Shown here piece by piece: positions 28,501 to 35,542 of a stretch of DNA of 35,542 bases. Under the pieces are notes generated by a model. That model saw nothing but the letters and a program-made list of their open reading frames with translations. It was not told where the DNA came from and ran no database searches. The translations under genes were made by a program, and so were the position numbers. Positions within the stretch are counted from its first letter, which is position 1; every line of letters begins with the position of its first letter. This DNA is from a virus: positions 1 through 35,542 of IMG/VR virus record IMGVR_UViG_3300020470_000079; one strand, 5' to 3'.

Positions 28501-30249
28501 TTATCCATCACAGCTTAAGCAATCCGGGTCCATTGCGTTCGCTGCTATATCTCCCCGTAATACGGATTCAGTCCGCATATAATATAATGTTTTAATACCG
28601 TGTTTCCAAGCATCAATATGAACTTGATTAATCCACCTTGGTGTTGCTTCAGATGGAAAAGCTAAATTAAGTGATACTGATTGATCTATATAATCTGTCC
28701 TTATTCCAGCTTGATTTACTAATTCTAATTGATTTATTTCTTTAAAAGTTTTAAATACATTTTTAACTGGTTCATTATTTTCTTCTTCTTCTGTTAACCT
28801 TCCTAATCTATCATAATACCAACCATTTAATTCTTTTATATCTTGTACTGAACCTTCATCTGCTAAAATTTTATCCCAAGTTTCTTTATTATCTATTTTT
28901 AATTTTCTTAAAACTTTTTGTAATTCTTTATTTTTTCTTATAAAAGTTCCTTTTGCTGATTGTTCAGTAAATACATTAGCTGCCCAAGGTTCAATACCAG
29001 GAGAAACATTACCTGCTAATTTACTATTTGAAACCGTAGGAGCTATAGCTCGTAAATGAGTATTTCTAAATCCTGTTCCTACACACCATAAAGGTTCACC
29101 ATATGTTTCAGCTAAAGCTCTAGATGCTCTTTCAGTTTCTATTTTGATTTTAGAAAATATTTCTCTAGTTTTAAATTGAGCTAATAATCCTTCAAAAGCA
29201 ATACCACTTTTTTGTAATAAACTGTGCCATCCTAAAACTCCTAATCCTAATGCTCTTCCTTTTACAGCTGATCTTACAGAATTATCAAATCCTTTCATAT
29301 TTTTAGCTCGCTGTATAAACTCTTCTAATACTCCATCTAAAAACCATGTTGCATCATAGGCTAAATTAGTATTTTTCCATTCATTATATTTTTCTAAATT
29401 TAAAGAAGATAAACAACAAACAAAACTATGAGATTCATCCGTATGTAATACAATTTCACTACATATGTTTGTCATATAAACTTTTAAGCTATTTGATTTA
29501 TAAGCGTCAGGATTAGCTTTATTTGTATTTCCTTTAAATAAGATATATGGTTCCCCAGTAGCTTTACGTTTTTGTAATAATTTTCCCCATCTTTGTCTTG
29601 CTTCTGGATCTCCTGCTTCAAGTTTACGCATAAATTTATCTCCCACTACAGCACATTGATGAAGATTAAGAGACTGTCTATTTACATCACCTTTAGGTTC
29701 TCTTATTTCTAACCATTCATAAAAATCAGGATGTTCTATATTAATATTAACTGACGCAGCTCCTCTTCTAACTGATCCTTGATTAGTAGCTAATATAGTA
29801 GAATCATAAACCTTACAAAAAGGTACTACTCCATCAGAAGTTCCATTACCTGTTATTTTAGCTCCAGCAGGTCTTATCATATTTACTCCAATCCCTACTC
29901 CTCCTCCGTGTTTAGCAAGTAACATCATCTCTACATTTTTATTACCTATATCCATAATACTATCAGCAACATCAATACCAAAACAACTTATAGGTAATCC
30001 TCTATCAGTACCTGTATTAGATAATACTGGCGAAGCTAAGCACAACCATCCTTTCCATATATAATCAAAAAATACATCTGCTAATTCAGGTTTAAATAAT
30101 CTTTTTGCTACTGTTTTAGCTACACGCTGATATGCTTCTTTAGGAGTTTCTCCATTATATAAATATCCGCCTCCTATAGTTTTTTTATAAACGTCAGTAT
30201 CTCCCCATGTAGGATAATCAATTCCTTTTGTCCAGTTATTGTTCCACAT
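28501..30249 (-). CDS. nrdA: Ribonucleotide reductase class I, large (catalytic) subunit
   Basis: A 582-residue NrdA that converts ribonucleoside diphosphates to deoxyribonucleotides with the NrdB radical subunit. Features in order: substrate-site CLASPVLSNTG (70-80); redox Cys89 in PISCFG; active-site Asn261, Cys263 and Glu265 in NICSEI; second redox Cys at 278/279 (FVCCLSSLNL); APTVSNSKLAGNVSPGIEP phosphate-binding region; radical-transfer tyrosines 556-557 in LYYMRT; and the C-terminal Cys577/Cys580 pair (CLSC) that takes electrons from a glutaredoxin or thioredoxin. The N-terminal ATP-cone of bacterial NrdA (E. coli form 761 residues) is missing, so there is no adenine-nucleotide activity switch. 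Its start overlaps the previous stop by one base (TAATG). Confidence 0.95.
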   Translation of the reverse strand: MWNNNWTKGIDYPTWGDTDVYKKTIGGGYLYNGETPKEAYQRVAKTVAKRLFKPELADVFFDYIWKGWLCLASPVLSNTGTDRGLPISCFGIDVADSIMDIGNKNVEMMLLAKHGGGVGIGVNMIRPAGAKITGNGTSDGVVPFCKVYDSTILATNQGSVRRGAASVNINIEHPDFYEWLEIREPKGDVNRQSLNLHQCAVVGDKFMRKLEAGDPEARQRWGKLLQKRKATGEPYILFKGNTNKANPDAYKSNSLKVYMTNICSEIVLHTDESHSFVCCLSSLNLEKYNEWKNTNLAYDATWFLDGVLEEFIQRAKNMKGFDNSVRSAVKGRALGLGVLGWHSLLQKSGIAFEGLLAQFKTREIFSKIKIETERASRALAETYGEPLWCVGTGFRNTHLRAIAPTVSNSKLAGNVSPGIEPWAANVFTEQSAKGTFIRKNKELQKVLRKLKIDNKETWDKILADEGSVQDIKELNGWYYDRLGRLTEEEENNEPVKNVFKTFKEINQLELVNQAGIRTDYIDQSVSLNLAFPSEATPRWINQVHIDAWKHGIKTLYYMRTESVLRGDIAANAMDPDCLSCDG

Positions 30250-31070: not shown

Positions 31071-32039
31071 TTACCAAATATCTTCAAAATCTTCACCTTC
31101 ATTAGCTTTCGAATAATCAGTAGGACGAACAGCAAAGAAATCAGTATGAGTATGCCCCCCGGTAAGATGGTAGAACCAATCAAGATTTTTTGCTGCTTTG
31201 GTGTCAACATCAAAGTACTCCCCGAGGTCTGCATATCCAAGCTCATTGAGCTTTTCGTTAAGTCTATTTCTAATAAACTGTTTGAGATCGTAGGCTTTAA
31301 GGTTTTCGATATCTCCGAGTTCAAACATTTTATCGATATAATTTTCTTCTGCTTTAAGCATTGTTGTTGCTGCATCTAATATATCTTTTTTACATTGTTT
31401 TAATAAAGTGGGATCTTCTTCACACATATGTCTAAATAATTGGCAACCCATTTTTGAATGAAGAGATTCATCTCTTACACTCCATTTCATTTGTTGGCCT
31501 ACTCCTTTTAAAAGATTTCTGAGTTGAAAACTATATAACACAGCAAAAGCAGAATAAAGACTAACTCCTTCAGCAAAAGCGCTAAAGATCGCAATGCTTC
31601 TACCGATTCCACTAGGTTTATTTCCATCATAACTAATTAAATTATCAAAGCGTTCCATTGTTGCTTTGTCTTGAAGAAACGCTTCAAAATCTTCTAAACC
31701 AAGAGTTTCATTTAAATAAGAATAAGCAACTGCATGAATTGTTTCTTGAGATCCAAACATCATTGCCATCTGTTGTATCTCGTGTTTAGGAAACCAAGAC
31801 ACTACCTTTTGTGTCCAGTAATCGGAAACAGCACACTCAGTCTGAGCAAAACCTAGTAAGATATTACCTACTAGATTTTTTTCAGATTTAGTTAATTTTT
31901 CATTCCAATCTTTAACATCTCCAGACATTGGAATTTCTGTGTGTAACCAAAAAACTTGAGCTTGTTTTAACCATCCTTCAGTATAATAATCTGGATATTC
32001 AAAAGGTTTATATGGTATTCTTTTATCAAATAATCCCAT
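31071..32039 (-). CDS. nrdB: Ribonucleotide reductase class I, small (radical) subunit
   Basis: A 322-residue NrdB that holds the dimetal/tyrosyl-radical centre and supplies the radical to NrdA. Ligands seen: Glu68 (QTECAV), at the position of Asp84 in E. coli; Glu99 and His102 in QETIHAVAY; Glu157 (AFAEGV); Glu191 and His194 in RDESLHS. The radical tyrosine equivalent is Tyr106 (ETIHAVAY). The C-terminus ends DFEDIW, suitable for docking to the large subunit. Spacing from Glu68 to Glu99 (31) and from Glu157 to Glu191 (34) matches E. coli, while the middle is shorter. Glu instead of Asp at the first ligand is a variant. Its start overlaps the lipoprotein stop by one base (TAATG). Confidence 0.93.
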   Translation of the reverse strand: MGLFDKRIPYKPFEYPDYYTEGWLKQAQVFWLHTEIPMSGDVKDWNEKLTKSEKNLVGNILLGFAQTECAVSDYWTQKVVSWFPKHEIQQMAMMFGSQETIHAVAYSYLNETLGLEDFEAFLQDKATMERFDNLISYDGNKPSGIGRSIAIFSAFAEGVSLYSAFAVLYSFQLRNLLKGVGQQMKWSVRDESLHSKMGCQLFRHMCEEDPTLLKQCKKDILDAATTMLKAEENYIDKMFELGDIENLKAYDLKQFIRNRLNEKLNELGYADLGEYFDVDTKAAKNLDWFYHLTGGHTHTDFFAVRPTDYSKANEGEDFEDIW

Positions 32040-32512: not shown

Positions 32513-32683
32513 TTAATAACATTTTATATTAAATTTATCTTGCATTGCTACAAGATCACGATAAAATAAATACCCTTTAACTTCCATTCTCCATTTAACC
32601 CACTTGTCAATTTGACGTTCAGCGTATTTTTGTCTTGCTAATTGTTTTTGGACTCTAATATCAAGCTTATTGTTTCGTCGCAT
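32513..32683 (-). CDS. 56-residue basic hypothetical protein
   Basis: An ORF starting MRRNNKLDIRVQKQLARQKY and ending YRDLVAMQDKFNIKCY. It is basic and helical, with a tryptophan cluster (DKWVKWRMEVKG). It begins inside the 3' end of the endonuclease gene, a 46-base overlap, which is larger than others in this operon. An internal ATG (Met33) is an alternative start, but it would leave much of the conserved-looking helix outside. It fills an otherwise empty stretch between the endonuclease and the next small ORF. No family recognised. Confidence 0.45.
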   Translation of the reverse strand: MRRNNKLDIRVQKQLARQKYAERQIDKWVKWRMEVKGYLFYRDLVAMQDKFNIKCY

Positions 32684-33087
32684 TCTTTTTGATTTTGTGG
32701 TTTATATAAAGTTACGCCAGGTAAATGTTTAACTACATATCTTTTAAACATTTTCCATCGTAAAGGGAAACTTTCGTTAGCCCTTCCTTTAGTTTCTATA
32801 ATAAATCCTTTCCCTATAAAATCGGGTGTATATTTTATATTAAGGATTTTCTTACTTCCTCGGTTTTTATAATCACCTTTTCCATTACCGCATCTTTCAT
32901 ATGCTTTATTTGGAAAATCAAAACCTGCAAATATTTCGTAAGTTTGTCCTTCATATACTGCTTGTATTTTAGCTTTTTTTAAAGCTATATACATATATTT
33001 CTCAAGTCCAGATGAAAATGTAATACCGTCGTGATTTATTTTTTTTGATACTACAGGTCCTTTCTTTTTTCTTCTAAATCGTTTCAT
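32638..33087 (-). CDS. T7 endonuclease I-like Holliday junction resolvase
   Basis: A 149-residue PDDEXK-type nuclease resembling T7 endonuclease I (gp3), which cuts branched DNA such as Holliday junctions during replication and packaging. Four catalytic residues line up: Glu29 in SSGLEK (T7 Glu20), Asp89 in YTPDF (T7 Asp55), Glu98 and Lys100 in IIETKG (T7 Glu65 and Lys67). The N-terminus is very basic (KRFRRKKKG), as in DNA binders. It is about T7-size with an insert between the first two motifs (about 60-85, Lys/Gly/Arg-rich). It overlaps the preceding 87-residue gene by 14 bases. Fits the replication/nucleotide block. Confidence 0.85.
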   Translation of the reverse strand: MKRFRRKKKGPVVSKKINHDGITFSSGLEKYMYIALKKAKIQAVYEGQTYEIFAGFDFPNKAYERCGNGKGDYKNRGSKKILNIKYTPDFIGKGFIIETKGRANESFPLRWKMFKRYVVKHLPGVTLYKPQNQKECDETISLILESKNN

Positions 33088-34107: not shown

Positions 34108-34761
34108 TTATTTAATTTTATTGTTATACAAATGGAAATTATGTGCAAAATGATAATAATTTCCTAGTTTAATAGACAGCCTATCTGCAATCATTTTTTG
34201 TAACATAACAAAACAATACTGATCATTACAAAAGCCATACCAGAGATCATTAGATCTCATCATAACGGCCATATTTAGTTTGTTATTTACAATAGTAAAT
34301 TGTATTGCATATGTACAAGGAGTATCTTTAGCATACGTGTTAATTTCTTTTCCATCATAAATAGATATTGCAGCGTGTCTTGTATCTTTTACATCTTTTA
34401 ATTTAGCTACAACATAATCTATTTGATGATTTCTATTCCATTGCCACCCATAATTAGATCTACACTTTCTTTCTGAATCAGCCATTCTATCCCATATTGG
34501 AGGTACTTTACCATATATTTCCCCTAATTTTTCTACACTAGGATCTCCTGATAAATACCATTGCCATTCTGCTTCCGCATAATCTTTATTCCAATTTCTA
34601 TTTGGATGTGTTATATTAACTTGTAAAGGATTATCTAAATAAAATCCTACATTAAATAAAGCTTTTGTATCTCCGAAATCTATCCCATATTTTTGAATAT
34701 GAAAATAGAAATACTTAAAAGCCTCATTAGCATTTTTAAAACTATTTTTCACGTTTGTCAT
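34108..34761 (-). CDS. dCMP hydroxymethylase-like enzyme (thymidylate synthase fold)
   Basis: A 217-residue enzyme of the thymidylate-synthase family, started at the ATG at 34761 (MTNVKNSF); an upstream ATG would add a hydrophobic leader lying in the previous gene. Aligned features: Glu65 (EWQWYLSGD, E. coli ThyA Glu58), Trp90 (PPIWDRMA), Tyr104 (SNYGWQW), Arg128, catalytic Cys149 (TPCTYAIQF, ThyA Cys146), MRSND at 168-172, His210 and Tyr212 (HNFHLY). At ThyA Asn177, which recognises uracil, this protein has Asp180 in GFCND. T4 dCMP hydroxymethylase also has Asp there, with the same MRSND...GFxND and SNYGW signatures. So dCMP, not dUMP, is the predicted substrate. Product (hydroxymethyl or methyl) is inferred. 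About 25-30 C-terminal residues of the family are missing. Confidence 0.8.
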   Translation of the reverse strand: MTNVKNSFKNANEAFKYFYFHIQKYGIDFGDTKALFNVGFYLDNPLQVNITHPNRNWNKDYAEAEWQWYLSGDPSVEKLGEIYGKVPPIWDRMADSERKCRSNYGWQWNRNHQIDYVVAKLKDVKDTRHAAISIYDGKEINTYAKDTPCTYAIQFTIVNNKLNMAVMMRSNDLWYGFCNDQYCFVMLQKMIADRLSIKLGNYYHFAHNFHLYNNKIK

Positions 34762-35020
34762 AATAATATTTACACATTTGATAATAAGAATAAGAAAAAT
34801 TATCTTTAGTATATATACTAGGAGATAAATGAGGGGTTTCACCTTTTTTATATTCTCCAATATTAATACCTATTTTCCACACTCCTATTTCTCCACTAAC
34901 TGGAATAGGAAATATTCTTATATTGTTATCTATACAATAACTATACCACTGTCTTTCTTCTGAATTTGGTACATAATCCGGCATTGGATTAGTTTTCTTT
35001 TTCCTATTTTTTATTCCCAT
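34742..35020 (-). CDS. Hypothetical protein between helicase and hydroxymethylase genes
   Basis: A 92-residue protein. It has a basic N-terminus (GIKNRKKKTNPMPDYVPNSE) and a middle with EERQWYSYCIDNNIRIFPIP and SGEIGVWKIGINIGEYKKGE, then a Tyr-rich end (DNFSYSYYQMCKYYYDKREK). I do not recognise the family. It overlaps the helicase stop by 10 bases and the hydroxymethylase start by 20, so it is translationally linked to both. The position suggests a replication or nucleotide-modification role, but nothing in the sequence shows it. No membrane segment. Confidence 0.6.
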   Translation of the reverse strand: MGIKNRKKKTNPMPDYVPNSEERQWYSYCIDNNIRIFPIPVSGEIGVWKIGINIGEYKKGETPHLSPSIYTKDNFSYSYYQMCKYYYDKREK

Positions 35021-35542
35021 GGCATTATATCATTAATTACTTGTTGATCTTCTTGTGGAATAAAACATCCAGATTTAGGTTCCCATTTAAAATGAGCTTC
35101 AGCACCGTTTTCACCTAAGTTTTGAAATTTAACTTTCAATACCTTCGCTTTAACTGTTTTAGCCTCATAATCTCTATGAACTAAAATACCATGATAAGAC
35201 GCATCATACCATTCTCCACCTCCTTTTATATTATACATATTAGGTTCTTCAATTTTACCGTCTTTATCTTTGTACATTTTAGTAGGATGAGCTACAATAA
35301 AAACTAATACATCAAATTTCTTAGCAAATGTTTCTATCTTTGTTAGATATTCCATTGTATATCTATTAACATCATCTGTATTTGAGTCTATATCTCTAAT
35401 CTTATTAAAAGGATCTATAACTAAACATTTAATTCCTTTACGTTTAACAAGTTCCGCTCCCTTTATTAATATAGATTCAAGAGTATATCTTTCCATATCT
35501 ATAAAAAAGAAATTATCATTTACGTGCTCTGCTACTTCATTC
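35011..35542 (-). CDS. DnaB/T7 gp4-type replicative helicase, C-terminal part (5' end outside window)
   Basis: The frame is open to the right edge of the window, giving 176 residues of the C-terminal RecA-like helicase domain. It starts NEVAEHVNDNFFFIDMERYT and carries a Walker B strand with Asp43 in KCLVIDPFNKI. A FIVAHPTK stretch (His85) corresponds to the motif H3 region of DnaB-like helicases. GGGEWYDASYHGILVHRD is the H4-like segment where DnaB/gp4 enzymes bind DNA and place the arginine finger. The Walker A loop and any primase domain would be upstream, outside the window. The ATG at 35496 is internal. The helicase would unwind DNA at the phage fork. It overlaps the next gene by 10 bases. 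Confidence 0.82.
   Translation of the reverse strand, partial: NEVAEHVNDNFFFIDMERYTLESILIKGAELVKRKGIKCLVIDPFNKIRDIDSNTDDVNRYTMEYLTKIETFAKKFDVLVFIVAHPTKMYKDKDGKIEEPNMYNIKGGGEWYDASYHGILVHRDYEAKTVKAKVLKVKFQNLGENGAEAHFKWEPKSGCFIPQEDQQVINDIMPWE

Follow-up and report, generated by a model that had tools for sequence, protein, structure and literature searches.

Introduction

Altered cytosine in phage DNA is a known route past bacterial restriction enzymes, and phage XP12 is known for a dCMP methylase that gives 5-methyl-dCMP. Pyrimidine hydroxymethylases that have Asp at the position of Escherichia coli ThyA residue 177 are likewise already known, as is the part they play in phage DNA. A ternary-complex study of T4 dCMP hydroxymethylase (gp42) listed the marks of that activity: an Asp that reads cytosine, a water-activating Asp at the third position ahead of the catalytic Cys, a Ser partner of the latter Asp followed two positions later by a Tyr, and the lack of both a Trp as at ThyA position 83 and a C-terminal tail; the water-activating residue may also be Glu, with Ser/Thr-x-Tyr as partner (PMC6400193). 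The MetaGPA study found that ThyA positions 177 and 147 best separate contigs with modified cytosine from unmodified ones, tied a His147-to-Thr change to the modified contigs, where thymidylate synthase domains are found together with PRA-PH (PF01503) and a second core consists of DNA ligases, and cited ThyA mutants that Asp alone turns into dCMP methylases (PMC8670742). The CMP hydroxymethylase MilA lacks the deoxyribose-selecting residues equivalent to Ser170 and Arg128 of the protein described here (PMC5175136), and the 5-hydroxy-dCMP synthases of Mosigvirus are homologous to the hydroxymethylases and have a distinct activity (PMC13390438). Here we analyze a thymidylate synthase-family gene in a 35,542-base IMG/VR virus record, possibly a fragment, the whole of which is referred to as the window.

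Active-site residues of the window protein

The open reading frame at 34108–34761 is a minus-strand gene, a detail absent from the first-pass annotation of this DNA, and encodes 217 residues that match the Pfam thymidylate synthase family at E = 2.4e-23; the plus strand over the same interval contains many stops. The annotation had proposed a dCMP hydroxymethylase because of an Asp at the position of ThyA Asn177 and motifs in common with gp42, and in the residue numbering used here the key positions are C149, R169, S170, D172, D180, H210 and Y212. Alignment with E. coli ThyA (from NC_000913) and T4 gp42 (from NC_000866) confirmed that Asp, not Asn, occupies the uracil-recognition position, with D180 aligned to ThyA N177 and gp42 D179, and both the MRSND..GFxND motif (MRSNDLWYGFCND here versus MRSNDVVFGFRND in gp42) and SNYGW are indeed common to the two proteins. 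The catalytic Cys149 and Glu65 place the protein within the thymidylate synthase fold, and it departs from ThyA proper in having Asp for Asn177 and in lacking the C-terminal lid.

The proposed assignment gains further backing from residues besides the Asn-to-Asp exchange. Asp146, at the ThyA Leu143 position and three residues N-terminal of the catalytic Cys149, and the Ser102-x-Tyr104 pair had not been named in the annotation, nor had Met93 (Trp83 in ThyA), Thr150 (His147 in ThyA) or the missing C-terminal lid; the chain stops five residues past Y212. The protein therefore has every signature residue of the T4 study, D and T at the MetaGPA-discriminating positions 177 and 147, and Ser170 and Arg128 rather than the Ala176 and Lys133 that accompany ribose in MilA, as in deoxy-specific enzymes. 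Because all three sets of marks are present, dCMP is favoured over dUMP or CMP as substrate and hydroxymethylation over methylation. Read from sequence, the residue set speaks against dUMP or CMP as substrate, against simple methylation and against a flavin-dependent 5-hydroxy-dCMP synthase. The product had been left as 5-hydroxymethyl-dCMP or methyl-dCMP; the former is favoured, and the latter is disfavoured by the same residues. Sequence and model together make the gene product very probably a dCMP hydroxymethylase.

The correspondence with gp42 (PDB 1b49, 6a9a) covers Asp179/Asp180, Asp145/Asp146, Cys148/Cys149, Trp82/Trp90 and Ser94-x-Tyr96/Ser102-x-Tyr104 (gp42/window), as well as the missing lid and the two motifs. 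The proteins differ in that their identity is about 26–30%, the window protein has Met where gp42 has Val85, and the basic folate-tail residues Arg59 and Arg177 of gp42 are not conserved, being Ala and Cys here. The C-terminal shortening relative to gp42, which had been put at 25–30 residues, needs qualification: the total deficit is 29 residues, and only about 23 of these are C-terminal, since the alignment leaves 5 residues past the His-x-Tyr strand in the window protein versus 28 in gp42 (and 55 in ThyA).

Conservation and phylogeny

Scanning IMG/VR with a small family alignment detected at least 560 related loci, 80 of which were taken for comparison. In a conservation set of 84 IMG/VR family members, with a mean pairwise identity of 68% and a minimum of 50%, D180, D146, C149, S102, Y104, T150, R128 and S170 are invariant, so that the T4 signature residues are kept in 84/84, apart from Met93 in 83/84. 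All 84 relatives end 4–13 residues past the equivalent of Y212, and the short C-terminus is therefore not a frameshift or artefact. The dN/dS values against the four closest relatives are 0.06–0.16; together with the Pfam match and the invariance of D180 at 68% identity, they argue that the observation is not due to chance.

Among solved structures, sequence matches rank MilA (7.9e-18), T4 gp42 (2.1e-16) and E. coli ThyA (4e-11). The family profile gives MilA 1e-24, gp42 7e-21, E. coli ThyA 5e-18 and the 5-hydroxy-dCMP synthase 2.5e-15, with a cellular thymidylate synthase of Elizabethkingia level with gp42 at 4e-21. In the tree, which has a weak backbone and two long-branched rows, the hydroxymethylase falls within a 20-row clade (support 96/95) whose members all have Asp, Bacteroides phage BF503P2 among them; the Asn types in the sample, namely ThyA, SPO1 gp29, LIMEstone, Molly_2, D6E and phiW8-1, lie outside it. 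The BF503P2 protein (WAX07047.1, annotated as a deoxycytidylate 5-hydroxymethyltransferase), from a cultured phage of Bacteroides fragilis, is 45% identical to the window protein and has the same signature residues, but it is 226 residues long with different adjacent genes, and tblastn of the window MazG against the BF503P2 stretch gave no match.

Database names of homologues are often thymidylate synthase. The enzyme of Agathobaculum phage AB434P2 (L024:3838-4500) is named deoxyuridylate hydroxymethyltransferase, yet it has Asp at the cytosine-reading position, so the name is probably wrong. BF503P2 encodes a second thymidylate synthase-family protein (L002:17127-17933), Asp-type by alignment but with the catalytic Glu replaced by Leu, a divergent and possibly repurposed paralogue. 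In the cultured Lactobacillus phage ATCCB and Enterococcus phage VPE25, which have Asp-type homologues, a beta-glucosyltransferase gene adjoins the thymidylate synthase gene or lies one gene off. Maribacter phage Molly_2 (L195:1476-3969) pairs an Asn-type, uracil-type relative with a gene annotated as beta glucosyl transferase, which suggests glycosylated 5-hydroxymethyluracil (5hmU) in a flavobacterial phage.

Gene neighbourhood

The gene order in the window (Table 1) is primase-helicase, 92-residue protein, hydroxymethylase, MazG, 87-residue protein, DUF1064, and the small and large subunits of ribonucleotide reductase (RNR), and it is kept in most of the 84 loci; a full 572-residue copy of the primase-helicase, with Pfam Toprim and DnaB_C domains, is present in L003. 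Searches of Pfam and PHROG with the 92-residue protein returned no match.

Table 1. Positions of the hydroxymethylase gene, its neighbours in the window and the sister-phage cassette
Feature	Position	Strand	Basis
Predicted dCMP hydroxymethylase, thymidylate synthase superfamily, 217 aa	34108..34761	minus	predicted roles: nucleophile C149, cytosine reading by D180, water activation by D146, proton relay through S102 and Y104
TOPRIM-DnaB primase-helicase, C-terminal part, cut by window end	35011..35541	minus	PHROG primase/helicase 2.4e-25
Conserved small protein between primase-helicase and hydroxymethylase, 92 aa	34742..35020	minus	in 76/84 relatives
MazG/PRA-PH nucleotide pyrophosphohydrolase with N-terminal GIY-YIG-like (T5orf172-like) domain, 257 aa	33327..34100	minus	Pfam
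Small conserved block protein, MazG-like in appearance, 87 aa	33074..33337	minus	at +2 in 74/84 relatives; PHROG matches weak
DUF1064 nuclease-like (Holliday-junction resolvase-like) protein	32638..33087	minus	Pfam 2.8e-6; PHROG Holliday junction resolvase 2e-10
Ribonucleotide reductase small subunit, deoxynucleotide supply	31071..32039	minus	Pfam 1.5e-57
Ribonucleotide reductase large subunit, deoxynucleotide supply	28501..30249	minus	Pfam 3.2e-88
Sister-phage cassette loci	L112:519-5585, L102:2394-7460, L008:269-4973, most of L119-L193		

MazG is the gene next to the hydroxymethylase in most of the 84 relatives. The window protein scores 23.9 bits for PF01503 (cut-off 21.3) and 23.6 bits for PF03819 (cut-off 22) and contains an EExxE..ExxD motif (EECGELAKALLKDDQTEVID), and a direct comparison with T4 gp56 gave no significant similarity. 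Its extra N-terminal GIY-YIG-like domain is seen in L112 as a T5orf172 match of E = 0.006, below the Pfam cut-off. Both gene classes associated with modified contigs in MetaGPA occur in this group, PF01503 adjoining the hydroxymethylase and an ATP-dependent ligase in the close relative L003. In L115 (2897-4768) and L105, the slot of the RNR small subunit holds another gene family, of about 620 residues, that looks like an RNR large subunit.

A cassette in sister phages

At a minority of the loci, noted at L008 and subsequently at L102 and L112, a hydroxymethylase of the same clade sits among other genes, in a cassette that runs DUF6378, C49, C50, PLP enzyme, Asp-type hydroxymethylase and MazG, where C49 and C50 denote two protein families. 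A scan with C50 returned 76 contigs. Full-length C50 is present in 70 viral contigs, accompanied by the PLP enzyme in 69, a hydroxymethylase of the window's clade in 66 (usually within the cassette), DUF6378 in 61 and MazG in 59, and three contigs (L145, L150 and L181) carry a C49-C50 fusion. All 67 cassette hydroxymethylases of adequate length have the Asp.

The C50 model has a pLDDT of 88.3, and among its best matches in a viral library are proteins called amino acid:DNA transferase (E = 1e-10, TM 0.77). In VIA the highest-ranking match is the PaMx11 phage 5-phosphomethyl-deoxyuridine glycinyltransferase, with a Z of 9.5 over 200 residues, modest for a helical protein; this solved relative of C50 acts on a 5-phosphomethyl-deoxyuridine base. 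The cassette substrate is predicted to be 5-hydroxymethylcytosine (5hmC). The C49 N-terminus resembles T4 beta-glucosyltransferase (hhalign 88.9%) and also matches the VPE25 enzyme weakly, and SGNH-like motifs occur in the C-terminal half of 57 of 65 sequences. We give an even chance to the reading that enzymes of the window's clade also open the way to an amino-acid hypermodification of cytosine, in which 5hmC would be activated, loaded with an amino acid and trimmed by the PLP enzyme, the window phage being the bare version that ends at 5hmC. Searches of the open literature found no description of the C49-C50 cassette, which is not proof of novelty.

A proposed route from dCMP to phage DNA

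By homology with the characterized enzymes, Cys149 would attack C6 of dCMP, Asp180 would recognize the cytosine ring and protonate N3, and Glu65 would aid the opening of methylene-tetrahydrofolate, while Ser102 and Tyr104 would hold the water that accepts the C5 proton and Ser170 and Arg128 would select deoxyribose. With neither a lid nor a Trp at position 93 to exclude water, a water activated by Asp146 would attack the exocyclic methylene, and the products would be 5-hydroxymethyl-dCMP and tetrahydrofolate rather than a methyl group and dihydrofolate. Upstream of this step, the phage RNR may supply deoxynucleotides, and the adjoining MazG would be a dCTPase that converts dCTP to dCMP, supplying the substrate and removing the competitor.

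T4 has a dNMP kinase, the dCTPase gp56 and glucosyltransferases, none of which was recognized here save for the MazG that may replace gp56. Partner genes were searched for in 29 related contigs of the window's clade, mostly of 56–96 kb and near full length, in records that are not certified complete. A dNMP kinase (gp1 family, phrog_139) was found in 0 of 30 such uncertified records, 29 of them of the window's clade, with positive controls; glycosyltransferase PF00535 was found in 0/30 and beta-glucosyltransferase PF09198 in 0/29 of the window's clade, with a weak signal only in the cassette-bearing L102; and DNA polymerase A (PF00476) had no match in the 29 contigs. The gene inventory of the relative G005, combined with family searches over the 29 contigs, likewise held no GT2, beta-glucosyltransferase, dNMP kinase, PolA, C49 or C50. 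Since no glucosyltransferase was found, we do not class the window phage as a T4-type glucosyl-5hmC system, and the analogy with T4 stops at the base because neither the kinase nor the glucosyltransferase that T4 has alongside gp42 was found in the window's clade. As neither a dNMP kinase nor a PolA-type polymerase is detectable in the 29 contigs, the model invokes host kinases, which would take hm-dCMP to hm-dCTP, and a host polymerase, which would incorporate it. The final DNA would contain bare 5hmC, or 5hmC completed by an unrecognized enzyme, and would resist type II restriction.

The weakest link of this model is the passage of hm-dCMP into DNA, because kinase, polymerase and glycosyltransferase all went undetected in the 29 contigs. 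The same negative results favour a different reading, in which 5hm-dCMP serves chiefly to deplete or label nucleotide pools and a phage that supplies no kinase, polymerase or glucosyltransferase keeps mostly plain cytosine in its genome. We regard this as improbable, given the strong purifying selection on the enzyme and its fixed linkage to a MazG pyrophosphohydrolase, and given that sister phages pair the same enzyme with proteins that resemble DNA-acting transferases, an arrangement that is easiest to explain if the base ends up in DNA. Virion DNA that carries 5hmC or a derivative is the probable outcome.

Structure model and alternative activities

An AlphaFold2 model built from 37 family sequences, all from the window and IMG/VR loci, has a pLDDT of 90.7 and a pTM of 0.88. 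It shows a thymidylate synthase fold that terminates directly past the active-site His-x-Tyr strand and carries gp42-type catalytic and specificity residues. Foldseek placed MilA and then T4 dCMP hydroxymethylase at the top, so that the structure model, which had been proposed as a check on the assignment, agrees with it. MilA (PDB 5jnh), the best match by both sequence and Foldseek, also has Asp at the cytosine-reading position, but its helical C-terminal domain is absent from the window protein.

Structural alignment brings in a flavin-dependent 5-hydroxy-dCMP synthase, the dCMP hydroxylase of RB69/Mosigvirus type, which puts OH directly on C5 of dCMP and whose Asp also reads cytosine. Structures of a phage dCMP hydroxylase with dCMP and FAD headed the VIA-align results (9iqc, Z 23.1; 9iqu, 22.6), ahead of MilA (22.3), ThyA (19.8) and gp42 (19.4), although the gap of less than 1 between 9iqc and MilA amounts to a tie, and the C-terminus is similarly short, with 12 residues past the His strand in the Mosigvirus homologue. 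Against this, the one reference sequence, Mosigvirus ATK47, has lost residues that the window protein keeps: Trp90 is Val, Asp172 (a pterin contact) is Asn, Tyr212 is Phe, Asp146 is Glu and Ser102 is Thr. The window protein is about 21% identical to this type versus 30% for gp42, the family-profile score of the 5-hydroxy-dCMP synthase is weaker than that of MilA, and the type forms a very long separate branch in the tree. Because of these residue differences and the weaker family scores relative to MilA and gp42, we retain the hydroxymethylase reading and consider the hydroxylase very unlikely.

An ordinary thymidylate synthase that converts dUMP to dTMP, supplying dTTP alongside the RNR genes, would agree with the superfamily, with the nearby RNR and MazG, with the database names of homologues and with the gene being the sole family member in each related contig, but Asp for Asn177 in 84/84, Asp146 for Leu143, Thr for His147 and the missing lid and Trp83 make this hardly credible. 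A dCMP methylase giving 5-methyl-dCMP, as in phage XP12 and the ThyA N177D mutant, has in its favour that Asp alone suffices in ThyA mutants, and is just as implausible, since methylation by hydride transfer needs a closed, water-poor pocket, whereas the window protein has neither the lid nor Trp83 and does have the water-activating Asp146 with Ser102 and Tyr104.

The phage group and its likely host

Each related contig carries exactly one thymidylate synthase-family gene. G005 (69,119 bases), an 89%-identical relative, has both ends inside the primase-helicase gene, with about 0.5 kb missing compared with the relative G001, and appears to be circularly permuted. By portal protein, the closest cultured relatives are phages of Flavobacterium and Cellulophaga, and some relatives of the enzyme are located in metagenome-assembled genomes (MAGs) of Flavobacteriaceae, Saprospiraceae and Sphingobacteriaceae; a Bacteroidota host is therefore likely for the window's phage group. 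Observed-to-expected ratios of GC-containing 4-mer palindromes, from few genomes, are 0.93 in the window and 0.91 and 0.95 in two close relatives, compared with 0.82 in a related podovirus without a thymidylate synthase gene and 0.84 in the enzyme-bearing BF503P2. Relatives of the window phage also encode GroEL (G001:C1 50721-52292, equivalent to L010:13722-15293; Pfam 2.3e-63) and GroES (G005:C1 25198-25458, equivalent to L013:5699-5959; Pfam 7.9e-12), and the related podovirus MW202828 is annotated with both.

Implications

What is new here is that short, predicted dCMP hydroxymethylases make up a large and mostly marine clade in which the gene is fixed beside MazG, apparently without the partner genes of T4. 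The open papers searched held no description of modified cytosine in this phage group, and a well-marked predicted dCMP hydroxymethylase is now placed in a large, uncultured, mostly marine group, probably of Bacteroidota phages, with at least 560 related IMG/VR loci. The prediction is testable on cultured Bacteroides phages that have the same enzyme clade. The apparent minimal toolkit of a hydroxymethylase and a MazG raises the question of whether host enzymes carry 5hm-dCMP into DNA, and the sister cassette points to a new route of cytosine hypermodification.
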